DNA of 64,000 nt, taken from the NCBI RefSeq assembly GCF_001025195.1, contig NZ_AP012325.1, positions 1,860,001-1,924,000 on the forward strand, in the 5' to 3' direction. The position numbers and the translations under genes were made by a program. The notes beneath the pieces are model-generated. The model was not told the origin of the DNA. It saw nothing but the letters and a program-made list of their open reading frames with translations, and ran no database searches. This DNA comes from Bifidobacterium catenulatum DSM 16992 = JCM 1194 = LMG 11043. Lineage in GTDB: Bacteria > Actinomycetota > Actinomycetes > Actinomycetales > Bifidobacteriaceae. Below are positions 31,566 to 51,652 of the stretch, piece after piece; the first letter of the stretch is position 1, and every line of letters starts with the position of its first letter.

Positions 31566-31828
31566 TGATTGCGCGCGACAAGAACCACCCGTGCGTAGTA
31601 ATGTGGTCGATCGCCAATGAGCCAGGATTGGATGGTGACGGGGAACGTCCACAGCAGGCGTATGACTACTTTCGTCCGCTGTATGAGCTGGCGCACGCCA
31701 GCGACCCGCAGAACAGGCCGGTCACACTGGTATGCTGCCAAAACGACTACACGACCGACATCGCCGAACGAACCATGGATGTGGTGTGCATCAACCGCTA
31801 CTACGGCTGGTACAACCTGAGCGGTCGA
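31565..31828 (+). pseudogene. Fragment of a GH2 beta-glucuronidase
   Basis: It reads MIARDKNHPCVVMWSIANEP (NEP holds the acid/base Glu), then QQAYDYFRPLYELAHASDPQ and MDVVCINRYYGWYNLSG, a textbook beta-glucuronidase core of about 87 residues. Both ends are missing. The 3' break falls exactly at a hairpin-repeat unit (31828-31915). Confidence 0.75.
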
Positions 31829-31915
31829 ATTCACCCAGTAGCCGGAGGAATCACCCCGCCAGAGAGGCCTTCAGCGGGGTGATTCCTCCAATCCTTGGCG
31901 GATTTACCCCGCTCA
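31828..31915. repeat. Diverged dispersed hairpin-repeat unit
   Basis: It holds ATTCACCCAGTAGCCGGAGG, then ATCACCCCGCC and the inverted GGGGTGATTCCTCC, related to the 53-bp units at 9065-9360 and 42258-42370. AGGAATCACCCCGC pairs with GCGGGGTGATTCCT to make a strong hairpin that could end both the relic and the ABC exporter operon. Confidence 0.6.
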
Positions 31916-33700
31916 GACCTTGATCATGGCGTATTGGGAATCGTAGAGGCGATAGTAGGCACCACGCTTGGCAAGCAGCTCGGCGTGGTTGCCTTGCTCT
32001 ACGATCTGCCCATGGTCGATGTAGCAGATCATGTCCGCGTTCTCGATGGTGGACAATCGGTGCGCGATGATGAAGCTCGTACGTCCCTTCAGCAGGTGGT
32101 TCAATCCGGCCTGAAGCGCCTCTTCGGTACGAGTATCGATATTCGACGTGGCTTCGTCGAGAATCAGAATGCGAGGATCGGCTAGCAGCACTCGCGCGAA
32201 CGCAATCAACTGGCGCTGACCTGCGGAAAGCGTGGAACCACGCTCCTCCACCACCGTGTCGTATCCGTTCGGCAAATCCATGATGAACTCGTGCGCATGC
32301 ACCGCCTTCGCAGCCGCTTCGATCTCGGCATCGGTCGCATCCAACTTGCCGTAACGAATATTCTCGCGCACATTGCCAGAGAAAATGAACGTATCTTGCA
32401 GCATGACGCCCATCTGCCGACGTAACGATTCCAATGTGACCGAACGCACGTCATGCCCGTCAATCGTCACCGACCCTTCTGCAACGTCGTAAAAACGCGA
32501 CAGCAGGTTGATGATCGTGGTTTTGCCGGCCCCGGTCGGGCCGACCAACGCAACAGTACTGCCTGGCGCAACATGCAGATCAACCAGATTGAGAATATTG
32601 CGACCGTCAGGCTCGTAACGGAAGATGACATCGTTGAAATCGACGCGACCTTCGATTGGCGGCAGTTCGGTCGCGTCAGACGCATTGCGGATCTCCGGCT
32701 GCACATCAAGCGTTTCGAAAATACGCTCAAGATACGCGGAACAGGTAATCAGCTGATTGTAGAAATTGCCGATGCTGATCACCGGATTCCAGAAATTATT
32801 CGCATACCCGACGAACGCGATCAGCACGCCGGTGGAAACGTTTACCGCGCCGAAGCCCGTAACGCCCACATAGTAGATGAACGCGATCGTCATGACGGAA
32901 ATGGTCTGGATGCCCGGCCACATGAGGAACTGAATGTGCACAGCCTTCATCCACGAGGTGCGCACGTCGTTCTGCTGCTCCTGGAAGGTTTTGAACTGCG
33001 CAGTCTCCTGAGCGAAGGTCTGCGTGGTTTTCACGCCGGCGATCGACTCGTGGATGAATGCGTTGAGATTGCTCTGCTTGTTCGACAGCACCTGGTACGC
33101 GCGGCGCTGGAAATGTTGCAATATCAGCACCCATGCGATCAGGAACGGGAAAAGCGCAAGGCTGAACAGCGCGAGCCGCCAATCGACCACAAACATGACC
33201 ACCAGAGTGATCAGGAACGTGAACGCGTCGGAAATCACATTGATCAAGCCGGAACTCAACGTGTCGGAAAGGGTGTTCACATAATTGACCACGCGAATCA
33301 GGATTTTGCCGTGCGGACGCGAATCGAAATAGCTGAACGGCAGCGTTTGAATATGCGTGAAAATATCGCGACGCATATCTTTCAACATGAGCTGACCAAC
33401 TCGAGTAATTTCAACGGTACGATAGCGCAATCCGAACTCGTACATCACGATAAGCACTGCCATCAATCCCGTTAATTCACCAAGTAAGGTGAGATTTTTC
33501 GACGGAATCGCACTATCGATCATGATTTTCGTCAAATATGGCACGACTACCGCGATGCAGCTCATCATTACGACGACGGCAAGAATGCGTGCGATACGTG
33601 ACATATATGGTTTTAAATAGACGCCGATACGCAGAATATCGCGCAGATTAATCTGCTCTTCCAGTTCCTCGTCTTCACGGAATGTATTACGTTTTGCCAT
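31913..33700 (-). CDS. ABC exporter half-transporter, consensus ATPase site
   Basis: Fused membrane-ATPase subunit (595 aa) of a heterodimeric exporter with the protein at 33731-35662. There are six membrane segments (about 30-320), then the ATPase domain with Walker A VALVGPTGAGKTT, the signature STLSAGQRQL, Walker B ILILDEATSNID with the catalytic Glu, and the H-loop FIIAHRLST. The order (partner first, 30-bp gap, same strand) fits an operon. The family moves drugs, lipids or peptides; the substrate is unknown. Confidence 0.93.
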   Translation of the reverse strand: MAKRNTFREDEELEEQINLRDILRIGVYLKPYMSRIARILAVVVMMSCIAVVVPYLTKIMIDSAIPSKNLTLLGELTGLMAVLIVMYEFGLRYRTVEITRVGQLMLKDMRRDIFTHIQTLPFSYFDSRPHGKILIRVVNYVNTLSDTLSSGLINVISDAFTFLITLVVMFVVDWRLALFSLALFPFLIAWVLILQHFQRRAYQVLSNKQSNLNAFIHESIAGVKTTQTFAQETAQFKTFQEQQNDVRTSWMKAVHIQFLMWPGIQTISVMTIAFIYYVGVTGFGAVNVSTGVLIAFVGYANNFWNPVISIGNFYNQLITCSAYLERIFETLDVQPEIRNASDATELPPIEGRVDFNDVIFRYEPDGRNILNLVDLHVAPGSTVALVGPTGAGKTTIINLLSRFYDVAEGSVTIDGHDVRSVTLESLRRQMGVMLQDTFIFSGNVRENIRYGKLDATDAEIEAAAKAVHAHEFIMDLPNGYDTVVEERGSTLSAGQRQLIAFARVLLADPRILILDEATSNIDTRTEEALQAGLNHLLKGRTSFIIAHRLSTIENADMICYIDHGQIVEQGNHAELLAKRGAYYRLYDSQYAMIKV

Positions 33701-42257: not shown

Positions 42258-42370
42258 CATCCAATTCTTCCAGTCAGTGGAGAAATTCTCCCGCTAACAG
42301 CCGCCTCAGAGTCCCAATTCCGCCAGTCAGTGGAGGAATCCTCCCGCTGACAGGCCAAAAACGTCCAGAA
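42258..42370. repeat. 53-bp hairpin-repeat units (two to three copies)
   Basis: AATTCTTCCAGTCAGTGGAG at 42263 and AATTCCGCCAGTCAGTGGAG at 42316 are exactly 53 bp apart, with a third half-unit near 42367. They belong to the family of the array at 9065-9360. The array forms the broken 3' end of the permease relic. Confidence 0.8.
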
Positions 42371-42723
42371 TGTTCCAGTAGTTCGTTCGGCACGGAGGTT
42401 TGCGCGTATACGCGACCTAGGAAGAACCCGAATGGCGAAACGCAACACGGGATGATGATCGCCAGCATGGTGTTGGTCAGGTGCAGTGCATGGAAAATCG
42501 AGTACTGCGGAATGGTGAGTATGCATCCCATGACCACGCCGATGGCGATGGCGTCGGGAATCTGGTCAAGTCCGACGGCAAACCACAATCCGTTGCTGCT
42601 AGTCAGCTGCGATGGGGTTTTGGTGGATGCGATGATAGCCCAGTAGATCAGGAACAGGAAGTAAATCAACGCTACGACGAGCACGATTACGGTAAACAAC
42701 AACATGACGCTTATCCGCAGCAC
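42360..42723 (-). pseudogene. Truncated ABC sugar-transport permease (MalG-like)
   Basis: An N-terminal membrane segment (LFTVIVLVVALIYFLFLIYW), then STKTPSQLTSSNGLWFAVG, an internal gap (several membrane helices missing), then IIIPCCVSPFGFFLGRVYAQ and TSVPNELLE, which is the EAA-loop start of a MalG-type permease. After LLE the frame runs into hairpin-repeat DNA. Two deletions make it non-functional. Confidence 0.75.
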
Positions 42724-42970: not shown

Positions 42971-44794
42971 TTAGAGCTGAATCACGACTCCCTCCCAACG
43001 AGCAAGCTCGCCACGAGCGATCGATTTCACGCCATGCGCAACATCATAAGTGCTGAGCAGTATCTGCGATTCCGCGACGCCATCGCCGAGCAGCTCCGCC
43101 ACTTCCCCCGGCAGACCGGCGGATCTATCGGTGAGATTGACGACAACAAGAATCGTATCGTCGCCGCTGGTACGGGTGAAGGCATACACCTGCTCGCTGT
43201 CCGCCGCGACCAGATTCCACTCGCCCGTCGCGACGGTCGCATTGTCGTGGCGCATGGCGATGAGCTTCTTGTAGAAGCCGTACACGGAATCCGGATCGTC
43301 GAACTCCTCGGCCGCGTTGATCTCCACGTGATTCGGATTCACGCCGATCCACGGCTCCGTCGCCGCGTCCGCCGGGGTGAAGCCGGCATACCTGGAAGCG
43401 TCCCACTGCATGGGAGTGCGCGAATTGTCCCGCCCGATAAGCGCGAGGGCCGCCATCATCGATTCCGGCGACTGGCACCTGGCCTCCTCCACGCGCTGGC
43501 GGTAGGCGTTGATGGCCTCCAAGTCGCGGTACTGGCCGAGCTCGGTGAAATGGGCGTTGGTCATGCCCAGCTCCTCGCCCTCGTAAATGTACGGGGTGCC
43601 GCGGTGCATGTGCAGCAGCATGCCGAACGCCTTGGCGCTCAACTCGCGCGACTCGCGGTCAGAGTCGTTACCCCAACGGGACACGACGCGCGGCTGGTCG
43701 TGGTTGCAGAAGAACAGGCTGGCCCAGCCAGCGTTCCTCACGGCCTCCTGCTGTCTGCTCATTCTATCTTGAAGTTTTTTAGGAACAAAAGCGTGTGTAT
43801 CCCATTTTGATTCGGGGGATTGATCGATACTGACGTGGTCGAACAGGAACAGCATGTCGAGTTCTTTGTGGGCTGGATTGGTAATAAACTCGTTGCGTTC
43901 CGGAGTGATGCCCGGCGCCTCGCCGACGTTCATGTAGCCCTCACGGCCCTCGAACACCTCACGGCGCATTTCGGCGAGGAACTCGTCGAGCCGCGGACCA
44001 TCGGAACAGAACGGGCTCGCGTTCGTGTATCCCTCTTCGCCTATCTCTCCTTCGGACAGTTCCGAGTCGACCTCTCCAGGCAGCCGTCCGTGGCTATCGA
44101 GATGTTTCGAGATCAAGGTGATCACGTCCATGCGGAAGCCGTCGATGCCGCGGTCCATCCACCAGTTCATCATCCTGTACACGGCCTTGCGCACCTCCGG
44201 ATTCTCCCAATTCAGATCCGGCTGCTTCCTGGAGAACTGGTGGAGGTAGTACTCGCCGCGCTTCGGATCGTACTGCCAAGCGGAACCGCCGAAATACGAA
44301 CCCCACCGGTTCGGCTCGGCGCCCGGAGTGCCCGGCTCATGGCCCGGCCTGGCCGGACGCCACCAATACCAGTCGGCATGCGGGTCGTCCCTGTCTCGGG
44401 AGGCCTGGAACCAGGCATGCTCGTCGGACGTGTGGTTGACCACCAGATCCATCACGATCTTCAGACCGCGCCTGTGCGCCTCGGCGAGCAGCTCGTCCAT
44501 GTCCTCCAACGTGCCGAACAGCGGGTCGATGTCCTGGTAGTCGGAGATGTCGTAGCCGTTGTCGTCCTGCGGCGACCTGTAGACCGGGGACAGCCACAGC
44601 ACGTCCACGCCAAGATCAGCCAAATAATCGAGACGGCTGGTGATGCCCTTCAGGTCGCCGATGCCGTCGCCGTTCGTGTCCTGGAAGGAACGCGGGTAGA
44701 TCTGGTAGACCACCGCGTTGGCCCACCACGGGTTCGGGGTCGCGCCGTTGGAACGCACGGCGTCGGGAAGGACGGAACGATTGAAATCAGTCAT
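42971..44794 (-). CDS. Alpha-glucosidase / oligo-1,6-glucosidase (GH13)
   Basis: Cytoplasmic 607-aa enzyme releasing glucose from alpha-1,6 or alpha-1,4 oligosaccharides such as isomaltose, panose, maltose or sucrose. GH13 motifs: region I DLVVNHTSDEHAWF, region II GIDGFRMDVITLISK (nucleophile Asp), region III MNVGEAPGITPERN (acid/base Glu) and region IV FFCNHDQPR (third Asp). The QPDLNWENPEV and VNHT sequences are typical of the oligo-1,6-glucosidase group. Last gene of the minus-strand set (binding protein, LacI, glucosidase), 31 bases after the LacI stop. Confidence 0.92.
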   Translation of the reverse strand: MTDFNRSVLPDAVRSNGATPNPWWANAVVYQIYPRSFQDTNGDGIGDLKGITSRLDYLADLGVDVLWLSPVYRSPQDDNGYDISDYQDIDPLFGTLEDMDELLAEAHRRGLKIVMDLVVNHTSDEHAWFQASRDRDDPHADWYWWRPARPGHEPGTPGAEPNRWGSYFGGSAWQYDPKRGEYYLHQFSRKQPDLNWENPEVRKAVYRMMNWWMDRGIDGFRMDVITLISKHLDSHGRLPGEVDSELSEGEIGEEGYTNASPFCSDGPRLDEFLAEMRREVFEGREGYMNVGEAPGITPERNEFITNPAHKELDMLFLFDHVSIDQSPESKWDTHAFVPKKLQDRMSRQQEAVRNAGWASLFFCNHDQPRVVSRWGNDSDRESRELSAKAFGMLLHMHRGTPYIYEGEELGMTNAHFTELGQYRDLEAINAYRQRVEEARCQSPESMMAALALIGRDNSRTPMQWDASRYAGFTPADAATEPWIGVNPNHVEINAAEEFDDPDSVYGFYKKLIAMRHDNATVATGEWNLVAADSEQVYAFTRTSGDDTILVVVNLTDRSAGLPGEVAELLGDGVAESQILLSTYDVAHGVKSIARGELARWEGVVIQL

Positions 44795-44825: not shown

Positions 44826-45839
44826 TCAACGCGATGCTATGGATCCACGTTGCCTATATACGGGATGAATCAATGTTGCTTTTTCTTTTCCTTTTAGAGT
44901 TCCATCCATGAGTCGAACAAGCATGCTCATGCCCAGTTGACACAACTCTGCTGGCATTAAGGGAAATTCATCTATCCTCAGACGCTTGCCTATGGAATCT
45001 GTATATGTTCCCGCTGAAATCAGCGAAAGATCTTGAGGAATCTTCATTCCACGCTGCCGCGTCGCAGCAACAAGATTATTAAGGAACAATGGGCCGCCTT
45101 GAGTCACAATTGCTGTGTTCTCACTCGAGATGAACCTCTCAAGTAGGTTTTCGGCAGCATCGAAATCATCCTCGTCGGTAAACTCTTCATCTATATGAAT
45201 CTTGTATCGCGCAGCAGCATCATGCATTGATGTCCTGAGTCGAATGAGGTAATTTGCACCTCCATTTCGTTCGTAATCAATCTCCTTCCCCCCTGCAAAC
45301 AGAATTCTGCTGTGCCCATTACGACAAAGCGTTTGCATGATCATTTCACCCATTTCAATAAAATCGGTATCAATGCATGGCACATTTATTTCATTCATAG
45401 GATGTCCAATAGAAATGAGCGGAATACTTGAAAGCTGAGCTAATTCAATTCGGGGATCATTCATAGTCACATCCATAAGAGCGACACCATCCACCATCCC
45501 AGTATCGATGATAGAGCGAAGCTGCTCATCTCCTGTTTCCTCAGTCAACAGCAACGTTTCATAGCCAAGTTGCCTGGCCGCTTTGAGAAAATTTAGAAAA
45601 TAAGCACAATAGTTGGTGTAGCTGGTGGAATCATGGACGGGCGAACTCAGCGCGACGAAATGAGTCTCACCACTCAACGGAGCTGGACCACCGTTTTTCG
45701 CCAAGTAACCAAGTTCCCGCGCAGCTTGCAATACTCTCCGACGGGTATTTGCCCCTATGGGACGTTTCCCTGTCATCACATAGGAAACCGTGCTTATGGA
45801 AACTCCTGCGAGAGCCGCCACGTCCTTGATTCCAGCCAT
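44826..45839 (-). CDS. LacI-family transcriptional regulator of the alpha-glucoside locus
   Basis: A 337-aa repressor with HTH IKDVAALAGVSISTVSYVM and effector domain. It begins 8 bases after the binding-protein stop, with AAGGATAAC upstream, and is followed by the alpha-glucosidase, so it most likely controls this locus through sites in the inverted-repeat promoters at 47196-47850. Base composition is clearly more AT-rich than that of the glucosidase. Confidence 0.9.
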   Translation of the reverse strand: MAGIKDVAALAGVSISTVSYVMTGKRPIGANTRRRVLQAARELGYLAKNGGPAPLSGETHFVALSSPVHDSTSYTNYCAYFLNFLKAARQLGYETLLLTEETGDEQLRSIIDTGMVDGVALMDVTMNDPRIELAQLSSIPLISIGHPMNEINVPCIDTDFIEMGEMIMQTLCRNGHSRILFAGGKEIDYERNGGANYLIRLRTSMHDAAARYKIHIDEEFTDEDDFDAAENLLERFISSENTAIVTQGGPLFLNNLVAATRQRGMKIPQDLSLISAGTYTDSIGKRLRIDEFPLMPAELCQLGMSMLVRLMDGTLKGKEKATLIHPVYRQRGSIASR

Positions 45840-45847
45840 TGTTATCC

Positions 45848-47188
45848 TTATTCGTTCACAGTAAAGCCTTGGCTCTTTCCTTGCTCAACGAGCTTGTCCT
45901 GCCAAGCCTTCACACCTTCCTTCATTGTGGTCTGTCCCGTGTAAGCCGCCCCGACAGTGTCGGTGAAAACGCTTCGCGCATAAACGTCATAGGGCAGAAA
46001 TTCGAACTTAGATGTGACACGCTTCGCAGCCTCGGCGAATTCAGCATTGAACTTCTCACCGCCAAAATAATCCACCGTGTCTCCATCGGAGTTCACCATA
46101 GTAGTCTGGCTAAGGAATTTATCGTTAGACATGGTCTTCAAATCAGCAGGAAAACCACCTTGGTCCACACGGGACATGATGGCATCAGAATTAGTGCTGG
46201 CAAATTCCATAAACTTGTACGCAGCATCCGCATTCTTGGATGACGACATCAGGGCAAGGGAGGAGCCGCCGTACTCAGAACTTACCTTCTCGCCGGCGTT
46301 CCACGTTGGCATTTGAGCAATTCGCCACTTTCCAGCACCCTCCGAAGCATTGTTTAAAAACATGCCGGGAGCCCATGCAGCAGATATCACGCTCGCAAAT
46401 TCTCCGGAACCAACTGAACGATACCAATCATCAGAACTATCTTTTGTCTTCGTTTCGATTAGTCCTTCATCAATCATCTTTTGCCAGAAGTCACAGAATT
46501 TCTGCACTCCTTTATCAGTAGTGAGTTTGACGGTAACCTTGGTGCCGTCTTTAGATGTGGAATATGGGTGTCCACCTGCTTGCCAGACCATTGCATTGAA
46601 GAATCCGGCGTTCCCTGGATCATTAGTAATATATGAACCAATCTGCTTAATCTTCTTTGCATCTTGATAGAACTCATCCCAAGTACTTGGCGGCTCAGAA
46701 ATGCCAGCTTTGTCAAATACCTCTTTGTCATAGTAAAAAGCCATTGGTCCAGAGTCGACTGGCATACCATACATACCGCCATTGAAATTCACTGCATTCC
46801 AAGTACCTGGGGTGTAGAAATCCTTATATTTGGCAGTCCCATAGTCATTCAGATTTTTAAGAGAGCCCTTAATTACATACTCAGGAATCGCATAATATTC
46901 AATCATGGCTATATCCGGAATTCCACTGCCAGCTTCCAAAGCATTATTCAGAGCTTTGTATTCATCTTTACCACTACCGGCATTGGTAAATTTGATGACA
47001 ATGTTAGGGTTTTTCTTCATGAAAACCTTAGCATTAGCTTTAAGATTGTTATCCCAAGCCCAAACATTAACAACCGTCTTACCGCTCCCATCGGAAGTTT
47101 CCGACTGAGTTGTTCCACACGCTGCCAATGGAACAACCATCGCCGCAGCACCGCAGAGAGCAATTATTTTTCCTAACGAGAACCTCAT
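45848..47188 (-). CDS. ABC-transporter sugar-binding lipoprotein
   Basis: Extracellular substrate-binding subunit (446 aa) for the permeases at 48071-50066. The signal peptide ends in a lipobox (VVPLAACGTTQS), so Cys is lipidated. The mature part has the family-1 binding-protein features (VNVWAWDNNLKANAKVFMKK, MPVDSGPMAFYYDKEVFDKA, AAWAPGMFLNN). The likely ligand is an alpha-glucoside, from linkage with the GH13 enzyme. It is notably AT-rich for this genome. It is divergent from the permease genes, which is unusual because these genes normally form one operon. The 138-bp inverted repeat starts 8 bases before its start codon. Confidence 0.9.
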   Translation of the reverse strand: MRFSLGKIIALCGAAAMVVPLAACGTTQSETSDGSGKTVVNVWAWDNNLKANAKVFMKKNPNIVIKFTNAGSGKDEYKALNNALEAGSGIPDIAMIEYYAIPEYVIKGSLKNLNDYGTAKYKDFYTPGTWNAVNFNGGMYGMPVDSGPMAFYYDKEVFDKAGISEPPSTWDEFYQDAKKIKQIGSYITNDPGNAGFFNAMVWQAGGHPYSTSKDGTKVTVKLTTDKGVQKFCDFWQKMIDEGLIETKTKDSSDDWYRSVGSGEFASVISAAWAPGMFLNNASEGAGKWRIAQMPTWNAGEKVSSEYGGSSLALMSSSKNADAAYKFMEFASTNSDAIMSRVDQGGFPADLKTMSNDKFLSQTTMVNSDGDTVDYFGGEKFNAEFAEAAKRVTSKFEFLPYDVYARSVFTDTVGAAYTGQTTMKEGVKAWQDKLVEQGKSQGFTVNE

Positions 47189-47195
47189 TGTTTCC

Positions 47196-47333
47196 CTTTC
47201 TTTCTATTGAGCAGCAGTGGCATGATCCTTGCTTTTGGCGCCCTTGCTTGTAGTCTGCATCTTAAAACCGAAGGATTATGACTGACAAATAATTTCGATG
47301 ATTTCGACGATTTCAATAATCAAGGCACTCACC
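47196..47333 (-). repeat. Left arm of a 138-bp inverted repeat (promoter and leader of the binding-protein gene)
   Basis: It equals the reverse complement of 47713-47850 at 136 of 138 positions; the two mismatches lie near the gene-proximal end (TTGAGCAGCAG against TTGAACGGCAG). Read towards the gene it has three 9-bp direct repeats of the type GAAATCRTC (47294-47320), then TCATAAT and a leader ending in the ribosome site. It is the regulatory region of the binding-protein gene. Confidence 0.9.
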
Positions 47334-47712
47334 ATAACAGACATGCGCGGCTGCATCACGCAACGGCCAACACAATTGATGATCCATTGTCTAAAGAACG
47401 AGAAAGTCACATTAGCGAATACTCCACTGAGACCAACGGTAGCAGCCGCACCGCCACCGACAATGGCCCCTCAAGCGGCGCATACAAAACCCATGGAGGG
47501 GCACAGGTTACGGAGATATGCAATGACTCCCGGCCCATTAAACCTATAACGTAAATCAACAGCGATGTCGCCAATAACAGCTCTGCTATATATTTCCATC
47601 AACAAATTGCCTGGAATATGTGCCAAATTGCAACCCCGGCGGTTCAGCTATCATGCGCTGAACCATCAACTTCGTAGGCCCTCACACGATACAGTCGCGC
47701 GTACCTGTTCTG
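47334..47712. other. 379-bp spacer between inverted-repeat arms
   Basis: I recognise no gene here. A minus-strand frame has a hydrophobic stretch (AIVGGGAAATVGLSGVFANV) but carries stops and no start signal, so it is probably a relic. No recombinase gene or recognised crossover site is visible. Confidence 0.4.
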
Positions 47713-47850
47713 GTGAGTGCCTTGATTATTGAAATCGTCGAAATCATCGAAATTATTTGTCAGTCATAATCCTTCGGTTTTAAGATGCAGACTACAAGCA
47801 AGGGCGCCAAAAGCAAGGATCATGCCACTGCCGTTCAATAGAAAGAAAGG
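47713..47850 (+). repeat. Right arm of the 138-bp inverted repeat (promoter and leader of the permease genes)
   Basis: Mirror copy of 47196-47333, pointing at the permease genes. The similarity stops just after AGAAAGAAAGG, where a binding-protein gene would be expected to start, yet none is present here. Confidence 0.9.
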
Positions 47851-47881
47851 AAAAAGAATACCATCGGGTGTCCTCGAAGGC

Positions 47882-47947
47882 ATGAACCGTACCGCCCGAT
47901 CATCGAAATCTGAATTTCTTCAGTCCAACGATCGGGGTGCGGTTCAT
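47882..47947 (+). terminator. Hairpin preceding the permease genes
   Basis: ATGAACCG...CCCGATC (47882-47901) pairs with GATCGGG...CGGTTCAT (47930-47947). No T-run follows. In sugar ABC operons such a hairpin commonly lies between the binding-protein gene and the first permease gene, lowering permease expression and protecting the 5' message. Confidence 0.65.
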
Positions 47948-48070
47948 CAAGGCTCCACCGTGGAGTGAAAGTACAGGCGCGAAAGGGATGCTTTCCCATC
48001 CACACCTGTTTCACACTCGGAAATCTTTGCGCGGCAATCAAAAACAATCAAAAATGTCTCGAAGGAGAGA

Positions 48071-49003
48071 ATGATGTCAGCAACGGAAGTTGTTGCCAAT
48101 ATGCCACTGCATTCGGCAACCGTGCGTGTCAATAAACACAAGGCGGATTGGCGTGGTTGGAAGTTTATGTGGCCGTTCGCGTTGGTGTTCGTGTTCGTGT
48201 TCGTGATCCCGATCCTGTACGCGGTCTACATCAGCTTCTTCCAGAAGCAGATGATCGGCGGCACGAGGTTCGTGGGGATCAGCAATTACATTCGTCTGTT
48301 CCATGATCCGCAGTTCTGGGGTTCGGTATGGCGCGTGGCCCTGTTCACCATGGTGCAGGTTCCCATCATGCTGTTCCTGTCGGCGGCGATGGCTTTGGCC
48401 TTGGATTCCATGAAGCTGCACGGCGCGAAGTTCTTCCGCATCACCACGTTCCTGCCGTACGCGGTGCCGGCCGTGGTGTCGACCTTGGTGTGGGGCTTCA
48501 TGTACGGCGCGAAATACGGTCTGGTCGGCTCCCTGAACGACTGGCTGGGCACGAACCTCGACGTGCTGAGCCCGAACGTGCTGCTCGCCGCGATCGGCAA
48601 CATCGTGACCTGGGAGTTCACCGGCTACAACATGTTGATCTTCTACAGCTCGCTGTCCACGATCCCGCACTCGCTGTACGAGGCCGCCAGCATTGACGGC
48701 GCGAGCGAATGGCAGATCATCAAGTCCATCAAGCTGCCCGAATTGAAGGGATCGCTCGCGATCACGGTGATCTTCTCGATCATCGGCTCGTTCCAGCTGT
48801 TCAACGAGCCGAGCATCCTGCAGAACATGGTGCCGGGCAACTCGATCACCACGTATTACACGCCGAACATGTACGCGTACAACCTGTCCTTCGCGGGCAG
48901 CCAGTCGAACTACGCCGCTGCCTTGGCGATCACGATGGCCGTGATCACGATGGCGATCGCGTACGCGGTGCAGCTCAACAGCATGAAGGAGCAGATGAAG
49001 TAA
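48071..49003 (+). CDS. ABC sugar-transport permease (MalF-like)
   Basis: A 310-aa membrane subunit with six segments. The first follows a short cytoplasmic N-terminus (WKFMWPFALVFVFVFVIPIL). The EAA loop that contacts the ATPase is YEAASIDGASEWQIIKSIKL. Start ATG 48071 (or the ATG directly after) with AGGAGAG upstream. It works with the permease at 49062 and the lipoprotein at 45848; the ATPase is not encoded here and is probably a shared MsmK/MalK-type protein elsewhere. Confidence 0.93.
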   Translation: MMSATEVVANMPLHSATVRVNKHKADWRGWKFMWPFALVFVFVFVIPILYAVYISFFQKQMIGGTRFVGISNYIRLFHDPQFWGSVWRVALFTMVQVPIMLFLSAAMALALDSMKLHGAKFFRITTFLPYAVPAVVSTLVWGFMYGAKYGLVGSLNDWLGTNLDVLSPNVLLAAIGNIVTWEFTGYNMLIFYSSLSTIPHSLYEAASIDGASEWQIIKSIKLPELKGSLAITVIFSIIGSFQLFNEPSILQNMVPGNSITTYYTPNMYAYNLSFAGSQSNYAAALAITMAVITMAIAYAVQLNSMKEQMK

Positions 49004-49061
49004 CGCCTTGGGGCGTACGTCATCCGCATGGGACATGGATTTTTCAAGGAGCATAACAATC

Positions 49062-50066
49062 ATGAGCGATGCTGCGATGTCGACGGGGTATATGACTCCC
49101 CAAGGGCTTAAAGAGCAGGAACGGGCCGCGAAGAAGGCCGAGAGGGCGCGCTTGAAGCGCGTGGAAATGGATGAGAAGGCGGAACGCAAACGCGCGGCGA
49201 AGTCCGGTTTCGCGAACGTGTCGAACCCGAGGCGCAGCAAGCTGCTGACCTTGGTATGCGCGATCTTCGCGGTGTACTGCCTGTTCCCGTTCGTGTACCT
49301 GCTGGTCAACGCCACGAAGACGCAGGCCGACTTCACTTCGACGTTCGGGCTGGGTTTCGGCCACACGTTCGCCCTGTGGGACAACATCGTGACCGTGTTC
49401 ACCTACCAGGACGGCATCTTCGGGCGCTGGCTGCTCAACACGCTCCTGTACGTGGTCGTGGGCGCCGGCGGCGCGACGCTGCTGGCCATCATGGGCGGCT
49501 ACGCGCTGGCGAAGTTTCGTTTCCCGGGCCGCAAGGCCGTGTTCGCGGTCATCATCGGCGCGATCAGCGTGCCGGGCATCGCGTTGGCGGTCCCGCAGTT
49601 CCTGCTGTTCGCCAAGCTCAGCCTGACGAACACGCCGTGGGCCATGATCATTCCATCGTTGATCAGCCCGTTCGGTTTGTATCTGATGTGGATCTTCTCC
49701 GAGCAGGCGGTTCCGACGGAATTGCTCGAGGCCGCACGAGTCGATGGGGCTTCGGAGTTCCGCACGTTCTTCCAGGTGTCCCTGCCGCTGTTGGCTCCGG
49801 GCATCGTTACGACGGCCCTGTTCACGATCGTGGCGACGTGGAACAACTATTTCCTGCCGTTGATCATGCTGAAGGATTCGAACTGGTATCCGTTGACGAT
49901 CGGTCTGAACCAGTGGAAGGACCAGGCGAGCACCGCTGGCGGCCAGGCGATCCAGAACCTGGTGATCACGGGCTCGTTGATCACGATCATCCCGCTGGTC
50001 ATCGCGTTCCTGTGCCTGCAGAAGTACTGGCAGTCCGGCCTCTCCGCGGGCGCGGTCAAGGAATAA
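49062..50066 (+). CDS. ABC sugar-transport permease (MalG-like)
   Basis: Second permease subunit, 334 aa, six membrane segments after a charged cytoplasmic N-terminus (Lys/Arg/Glu-rich, 10-60). The EAA loop is LLEAARVDGASEFRTFFQVS, and the C-terminal part LQKYWQSGLSAGAVKE is typical. The open frame reaches 49008, but AAGGAG lies ten bases before the ATG at 49062. It follows the MalF-like gene by 58 bases in one operon. Confidence 0.92.
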   Translation: MSDAAMSTGYMTPQGLKEQERAAKKAERARLKRVEMDEKAERKRAAKSGFANVSNPRRSKLLTLVCAIFAVYCLFPFVYLLVNATKTQADFTSTFGLGFGHTFALWDNIVTVFTYQDGIFGRWLLNTLLYVVVGAGGATLLAIMGGYALAKFRFPGRKAVFAVIIGAISVPGIALAVPQFLLFAKLSLTNTPWAMIIPSLISPFGLYLMWIFSEQAVPTELLEAARVDGASEFRTFFQVSLPLLAPGIVTTALFTIVATWNNYFLPLIMLKDSNWYPLTIGLNQWKDQASTAGGQAIQNLVITGSLITIIPLVIAFLCLQKYWQSGLSAGAVKE

Positions 50067-50100
50067 TCAATTTCTACACCACAGCCGTGGAACGAAAAAT

Positions 50101-50127: not shown

Positions 50128-50527
50128 ACGCATATACATGATCTGGCGGACCTTCCTCACAAATCACGATAGTTGTTCCCCATTGTGAGACACACTTCGG
50201 CTGCAAAGCTGAAGTAATTCAGATCCATATGGCCGAAGGTGCGGTCTCGATATGCGTAAAAACAGGAAGCTTTATGGCGGCACAGTTTAAAGTGCTGGCA
50301 CGGGCACTCAGACAGAAACGGCGGTGAGACTGTATATGTTCGACGACATCCCAAGAAGGTGAACTAATCTTTCACTGAGAACTGTCGAAATCCAGAGCGC
50401 GCAAGATTTCGAAAACTACCACGCACTCCTGTTTAGTAATCTTTATTAACAATAAAAATTACATGACACGCTTGCATCGCGGCAAACTACAATATGTACC
50501 AGCCCCACACAGGAAAGCGAGGACACC
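50128..50527. other. Intergenic region with the ROK operator
   Basis: About 400 bp with no gene I can support; short frames on both strands lack ribosome sites. The only clear feature is the inverted repeat at 50436-50462 just upstream of the ROK regulator. Confidence 0.45.
50436..50462. promoter_or_regulatory. Candidate ROK-regulator operator
   Basis: GTAATcttTATTaacAATAaaaATTAC (arms GTAAT/ATTAC and TATT/AATA around AAC) lies 65 bases before the ROK gene. It resembles the AT-rich TTATT/AATAA half-sites of NagC/Mlc-type ROK repressors. The role is inferred. Confidence 0.5.
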
Positions 50528-51652
50528 GTGAGCGGCACTCAGACAAAGGCATCACCTTCCGATATTCGAATCAGCAATATCACCGCCGCATTCAAGCAAC
50601 TATTCCCCGCAACGCAAATATCACGAGCCAACATCGGCAAACTCATCGGACTTTCACGCTTCACCACCAGCGAAGTGACCGGCGAAATGGTCGATAATCG
50701 CATTCTGCGCGAACTCGGACCAGACAATCGCGAGGGGCGTGGCAAACGTTCGCAAGTACTCGCCATCGACACTGATTTCTGGCGAATCGTTTCCATCGAC
50801 CTGTCGAATCCGAAACTCGCCAAAGGAGCGCTGGCGGATCTTTCCGGCAGAATCGTGGACCGCACCGAACTTCCTGCAGACAACGGTTGCAGCGTCGATG
50901 ATGTAATCAGCCTGTGCAAACAGCTCATCGCCTCAACGCCACTGCCGATTCTCGGCATCGGCATCGCCGTGACTGGCATTGTGGAACCCGACGGCGTAGT
51001 GCGCAAATCCGTGCACTTAGAGTGGAACGAACTGCCGCTGAAAGCCGAGGTGGAAAACGCCACCGGAGTGCCCACACTGGTAGGCAACGACACCAACGCC
51101 GCGCTTGTGGCGGAACGATTCTTCGGCGACTGCTCCCCCAATTCCATGCTCATCTCCATCGGCCGAGGCGTCGGTGCCGCACTATGCCTCAACGACGTCA
51201 TCATCGAAGGAAGCTCCTCCACGGCCGGCGAAATCGCGCATGTGGTGGTCGACCCAAATGGACCGACCTGCGAATGCGGCAAACGAGGCTGCCTTGAATC
51301 GTTGGTTTCCGACGACAGATTGCAAGAACGCATCGCGCAGGATCCCGCCTCACGTACGCGTATTCTCGCCGAAGCGGGCGCTCTGCTCGGTCGCGTCATG
51401 GCCATACCGGCCGGACTGCTGGATCTGCGTGACATTTCGATATACGGGGCGCCGGAAATCGTCAATGCTCAATTCATCGACGCAATGGAAGATGAAATCA
51501 GGCGCACCATGACCACGGATTATCAGAAAGCGCCGCAAATTCACCGTTGCAGGCAAGGCGAGGATCTCACATTGCGAGGCCAGGCCACCATCGTAATCCG
51601 CACACTAGTTCCGACAATCCACGAACGCGGCTCCCTCATCGGCGATGCCTAG
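50528..51652 (+). CDS. ROK-family transcriptional regulator
   Basis: A 374-aa NagC/XylR-type regulator. The N-terminal winged HTH (FPATQISRANIGKLIGLSRF) precedes an ASKHA sugar-binding domain: LGIGIAVTGIVEPDGVV, GNDTNAALVAERFFG, ISIGRGVGAALCLNDVIIEG and the ROK zinc motif CECGKRGCLES. The start is GTG 50528 with GCGAGGA four bases upstream. It probably controls the GH2 gene or nearby sugar genes. Confidence 0.9.
   Translation: MSGTQTKASPSDIRISNITAAFKQLFPATQISRANIGKLIGLSRFTTSEVTGEMVDNRILRELGPDNREGRGKRSQVLAIDTDFWRIVSIDLSNPKLAKGALADLSGRIVDRTELPADNGCSVDDVISLCKQLIASTPLPILGIGIAVTGIVEPDGVVRKSVHLEWNELPLKAEVENATGVPTLVGNDTNAALVAERFFGDCSPNSMLISIGRGVGAALCLNDVIIEGSSSTAGEIAHVVVDPNGPTCECGKRGCLESLVSDDRLQERIAQDPASRTRILAEAGALLGRVMAIPAGLLDLRDISIYGAPEIVNAQFIDAMEDEIRRTMTTDYQKAPQIHRCRQGEDLTLRGQATIVIRTLVPTIHERGSLIGDA

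Follow-up and report, generated by a model that had tools for sequence, protein, structure and literature searches.

The genes of a sugar ABC transporter in Bifidobacterium catenulatum DSM 16992 are divided between two transcription units that point away from each other, and each unit is preceded by the same sequence, in mirror image. This locus raises the question of how the separated parts of one transporter might be kept under common control, and of why the two copies of the sequence between them are so alike. The stretch of DNA analysed, referred to here as the window, comprises 64,000 nucleotides, positions 1,860,001 to 1,924,000 of a single-contig genome (G000) of 2,079,525 bp. Coordinates are those of the window, and positions in kb are those of the genome.

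Genes of the divided operon

The genes concerned are as follows.

42971–44794, minus strand: GH13 enzyme, close to oligo-1,6-glucosidases (PF00128; 1uok, E value 8.7e-174)
44826–45839, minus strand: LacI-family regulator (PF00356 and PF13377; orthologues in five genomes)
45848–47188, minus strand: SBP, the sugar-binding protein of the ABC transporter (PF01547, E value 1.8e-32)
48071–49003, plus strand: permF, an ABC permease (PF00528; near-identical copies at 558 and 1741 kb)
49008–50066, plus strand: permG, an ABC permease (PF00528)

The genes of one pathway thus form two transcription units that face outward, SBP-LacI-GH13 on one side and the two permeases on the other. These assignments, and the directions of the repeat arms that face the two units, agree with those made in a preliminary description of the sequence. 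The solved chains nearest to SBP are 6q5g and 6h0h, the latter of which we take to be a binder of beta-1,6-galactobiose. Past permF-permG are situated a ROK regulator, also on the plus strand, and then a GH2 enzyme on the minus strand. A truncated ABC permease remnant was observed downstream of the GH13 gene (42274–42723); at the position of this remnant, genome G037 contains a second transporter that is intact, consisting of an SBP and a pair of permeases, and is 87–97% identical to the remnant in DNA sequence.

Structure and distribution of the inverted repeat

Between the two units lie the following elements, in which the promoters and operators are putative.

47196–47334, minus strand: SBP-side arm, with promoter, operator and leader into the SBP gene (137/139 match to its partner)
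47335–47386, minus strand: inward continuation of the SBP-side arm, with decayed homology (35/52 versus its partner)
47422–47539, no strand: 118-bp portion of the spacer specific to this genome (in relatives, some 96 bp unrelated to it)
47659–47710, plus strand: inward continuation of the permease-side arm, with decayed homology (35/52 versus its partner)
47711–47849, plus strand: permease-side arm, a mirror-image copy directed toward permF (paired also in G037 and G040)

It is apparent that the near-perfect inverted repeat is real. The arms are identical in reverse complement at 137 of 139 bases, with an unbroken identity of 121 bp (47214–47334), and the two mismatches are both toward the gene-proximal end. 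The spacer between them measures 376 bp rather than the 379 bp given previously. No other long inverted repeat in the window approaches this pair in strength, and no third copy of an arm was found in the whole genome. Both arms point outward; that on the SBP side stops 7 bp short of the SBP start codon, and that on the permease side 221 bp short of permF. The ribosome-binding site of the SBP gene is copied in the permease arm, with no start codon after it, and permF has a site of its own. Elsewhere in the window (31817–31916), a 43-bp inverted repeat was observed that is 72% paired, has 14 bases between its arms and contains GGGGTGATTC-like units.

Paired arms were present in three of 112 Bifidobacterium genomes (G000, G037 and G040), always in the same orientation. 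Since three separate genomes carry the pair, one of them with different arm sequences, the assembly artefact that the preliminary description had named as a possible refutation can be set aside. The same description had proposed comparison with an unsplit operon, and this is afforded by G060, in which SBP, LacI, GH13, permF and permG all run in one direction behind one arm-like promoter. In G015, SBP-LacI-GH13 has one promoter and the permeases are absent beside the operon. Relatives showing only one arm had also been considered grounds for refutation; G060 and G015 are such relatives in form, but neither has a split operon, and their single arms are compatible with a duplication that accompanied the split. 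The LacI gene of G060 (L046 8279–9300) is disrupted, shifting out of frame beyond approximately residue 240, and regulation in that genome may be lost as a result.

A candidate LacI operator in both arms

Four short elements, two in each arm, were identified.

47286–47307, minus strand: likely LacI operator, SBP side, TCGAAATCATCGAAATTATTTG (exact only in the five LacI-orthologue genomes)
47738–47759, plus strand: likely LacI operator, permease side, TCGAAATCATCGAAATTATTTG (the same exact block)
47259–47288, minus strand: weak promoter-like hexamers, TTGTCA-18-TAAGAT, SBP side (consensus scan only)
47757–47786, plus strand: weak promoter-like hexamers, TTGTCA-18-TAAGAT, permease side (consensus scan only)

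A 22-bp block, TCGAAATCATCGAAATWAWTTG, occurs once per arm. Among the 112 genomes searched, exact copies of it were found in just five, which are exactly the five that contain orthologues of the local LacI (61–100% identity), a co-occurrence that represents five related operons and not independent sites. An additional match with two mismatches was found in G070, and a sixth LacI match, in G080, is only 40% identical. The same conserved site therefore stands ahead of both units, and only where LacI is present. The block persists in G060 and G015 in a leader of which the remainder is much diverged. These results suggest that the block is likely the operator of the local LacI, having a footprint of the expected kind. 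At best, 6 of 9 pairs match when it is read as a palindrome, which departs from the form typical of LacI operators, so that it is designated here as a candidate operator. The arms had been described as containing three 9-bp iterons; the repeat, GAAATCRTC, does exist inside the block, but in 2.6 copies, and conservation in relatives is limited to the last two.

The earlier proposal that the same promoter-leader precedes both halves of the transporter is upheld; the likely operator is kept in both arms in all three genomes with the pair. From the arm to permF, the consensus scan revealed no other promoter-like site on the plus strand. Provided that the scan has placed the promoter correctly, the predicted leaders would be about 65 nt for SBP and about 280 nt for permF, and an IS-end hairpin is present in the permF leader only; this long, hairpin-containing leader could lower expression. 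It is plausible that the arms balance the expression of the split operon, as had been suggested.

Age and likeness of the arms

A repeat-finding tool returned a longer pair (47191–47386 and 47659–47854) of 196 nt at 90%. The inner 52 bp of this pair are identical at 35 positions (67%), which would be expected by chance with a P value of about 5e-10. This decay of the inner flank implies that some 190 bp were duplicated, and that the duplication is older than the near-perfect core suggests. On the same grounds, the idea that the arms are identical solely because the duplication is young was rejected.

Within one duplication, then, 121 of 121 core positions and 35 of 52 inner positions are identical (Fisher P value 1.6e-10). 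In the core, 11 positions distinguish the two arms of G040; nine are private to its permease arm and none is situated in the operator, and the adjoining inner stretch is more alike between the arms there than in G000. Different stretches are thus alike in different lineages, as independent conversion tracts would give. The core has diverged in G060, which argues that outside the operator it is not strongly constrained. From these comparisons we infer that the arms have been homogenised by gene conversion; selection on the leader could be part of the cause.

The permease pair

Two overlapping stretches at the permease genes are shared with other clusters in the genome.

48055–50064, plus strand: counterpart at 558 kb, in the gos-type cluster (99.5%)
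48143–50068, plus strand: counterpart at 1741 kb, in the gal-type cluster (99.8%)

The permF-permG pair is therefore present three times, with 99.5–99.9% DNA identity over 1.9–2.0 kb, and by this high identity it belongs to the galDE/gosDE type. The likeness to the gos copy begins just ahead of the ribosome-binding site (48055). The galCDEGR and gosRDEGC clusters are those of B. breve UCC2003, and their permease pair is of the same family as that described here (PMC3815386). The gene order at 1741 kb (SBP, permeases, GH42, LacI) fits gal, and that at 558 kb (LacI, permeases, GH42, SBPs) fits gos (PMC3815386). The present pair differs from those of gal and gos in that it serves a GH13 operon with its own LacI and stands apart from SBP, behind a copied promoter.

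Between the gal and gos clusters of this genome, the GH42 genes next to the permeases share only 68% identity, which makes the clusters old and gives their permeases a young appearance. In G060 and G015 the two cluster copies are 99.6–99.8% alike within the genome and 82–90% alike in comparison with other genomes, and the permease pairs differ by 10–18% between G000, G060 and G015. The copies compared were those at 48055–50064 of the window, L055 8045–10055, L056 5013–6938, L046 11319–13271 and L117–L120. These data indicate that the permease pair is in concerted evolution in several lineages; this was not the case in G088, G075 and G018 (84–89%). The permF-permG pair studied here may be derived from, or have been overwritten by, a gal or gos cluster copy. 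It was also observed that the gal- and gos-type permease copies of G000, G060 and G015 have sharp identity edges at the two genes, with GH42 neighbours at 68–74%. A wider proposal, that in bifidobacteria ongoing conversion keeps alike those components of related sugar transporters that lie at separate loci (the permease pair in the gal, gos and present loci, and both arms of the inverted repeat), together with their shared regulation, over long times, is regarded as tentative and somewhat doubtful.

Apparent site of insertion

The operon is absent from G019, which is filed under the same species. In that genome the ROK regulator has directly beside it a nagA-type gene and other hexosamine genes, recognised by eye as nagB-type, GH20-type and ROK-kinase-type. 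The left flank of the insert in G040 corresponds to G019 L127 7986–8375 and the right flank resumes from 8297. Because these flanks overlap, some 80 bp of the ROK regulatory region are present on both sides of the insert. A part of the ROK divergent control region was observed on both sides in G037 as well as in G040, with G019 representing the empty site (sequences compared: window 50430–50538; L045 1091–1482 and 8907 onward; L127 7986–8375). The operon has the appearance of a block that was acquired and placed within a hexosamine (nag) locus. In G060 the related operon is found elsewhere, about 120 kb from the ROK gene.

One further element is situated in the leader of permF.

47882–47946, plus strand: palindrome resembling the end of an IS3-type element (copies in 34 of 112 genomes)

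This is a member of a dispersed family of 60–65-bp palindromes, GAACCGCACC...GGGTGCGGTTC, with many copies in those genomes. The loci compared were that in the window and L089, L090, L092, L094 and L096. In some genomes the palindrome is located at the terminus of IS3-type elements, with certain copies immediately adjoining IS3-type transposase genes, and in others it stands alone. It is possible that the 65-bp palindrome is the trace of a mobile element that participated in the rearrangement.

Alternative explanations

Phase switches of the fim type have a promoter between short inverted repeats, and the direction of that promoter changes. The present locus resembles them in having inverted repeats around a short intergenic segment, and homologous recombination could act on arms so long and near-identical, with a short spacer between them. 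The preliminary description accordingly suggested that the arms and spacer could invert, in which case recombination would flip the spacer and change expression. Here, however, the putative promoters are inside the repeats and face outward, so that a flip would leave each on the same gene and would be silent. Moreover, all three genomes with the pair have a collinear spacer, and the spacer, the inner flanks and the bases that mark the arms (core positions 121 and 123) stay on their own sides in all of them; the 118-bp spacer part does not correspond to the relatives' segment in reverse complement, and no recombinase was present among the neighbouring genes examined. An invertible promoter was rejected, as only one orientation was seen in the three genomes and inversion would change no promoter target, and a switch of any such kind appears highly improbable. 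The duplicated regulatory element might instead be the shared 5′ leader and not the operator DNA, given that about 65 nt of leader would be common to both predicted transcripts. This leader gave no Rfam match at E values up to 1 and folds no better than shuffled sequences (z 0.09), on which grounds a shared RNA element was discarded; in G060 and G015, moreover, little of the leader is conserved, in contrast to the 22-bp block upstream of it. Regulation through the leader RNA can hardly be credited.

The permease arm might also be a passive by-product, neutral or recent, of the rearrangement that brought the permeases there, with permF-permG driven by another promoter or hardly at all. The 221 bp, including the IS-end palindrome, that part the arm from permF would agree with this, as would the copied ribosome-binding site, which lacks a start codon after it, and the two further near-identical permease pairs in the genome. 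On the other hand, the operator is intact in the permease arm of G040 even though the remainder of that arm has diverged, the arms stay alike against a decayed flank, and the scan offered no further plus-strand promoter from the arm to permF. In addition, the only close copy of the permease pair in G040 is that at this locus, so that there the permease arm is the only way seen for the pair to reach this LacI. A passive copy is therefore considered unlikely.

Comparison with known systems

In divergent operons under one regulator, there is an operator in each of two outward promoters, and expression is coordinated. The present case differs in that both promoters and leaders are one mirror-duplicated sequence, 376 bp apart, which appears to have been homogenised. 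Local LacI regulons of bifidobacterial sugar ABC transporters include those of MalR4 and MalR5, with malEFG3, malE2 and glucosidases (PMC4746261). Features in common with these are a LacI gene beside that of SBP and a cytoplasmic alpha-glucosidase, an upstream site and the absence of an ATPase gene; the inverted promoter duplication has no counterpart described in the text consulted (PMC4746261). Searches of the open-licence literature returned nothing on point for permease gene conversion or promoter duplication in bifidobacteria.

Proposed origin and significance

Taken together, these sequence comparisons make it probable that the inverted duplication of a promoter and operator keeps the split transporter under one local LacI, with the arms homogenised by conversion. 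The older unit would have been SBP-LacI-GH13, with a single promoter and a single LacI operator. In an ancestor of the three genomes, the permease pair would have come to lie upstream in the opposite orientation, behind a mirror-image copy of promoter, operator and leader, and conversion would have kept the arms alike since. A G015-like arrangement lacking permeases would thus have given rise to one with the permeases downstream (G060) or to one with divergent permeases and a copied promoter (the other three genomes). The local LacI would repress both arms without sugar and free both transcripts with the same sugar; acting on both arms, it would cause the binding protein, enzyme and permeases to appear together despite the two transcription units. 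From the features described above we infer this order of events, and also that each arm is an active promoter and that the block is bound by LacI.

Because of their concerted evolution, the permease sequences are unfit for inferring the specificity or history of the transporter in these genomes. On the best reading, the locus is a clean example of inverted promoter duplication in a few gut bifidobacteria. It would be a clear case in which separated transporter genes stay co-regulated by means of a mirror-image copy of a promoter and operator, and not through a new site, and with one-direction and permease-less relatives at hand, the steps are open to testing.
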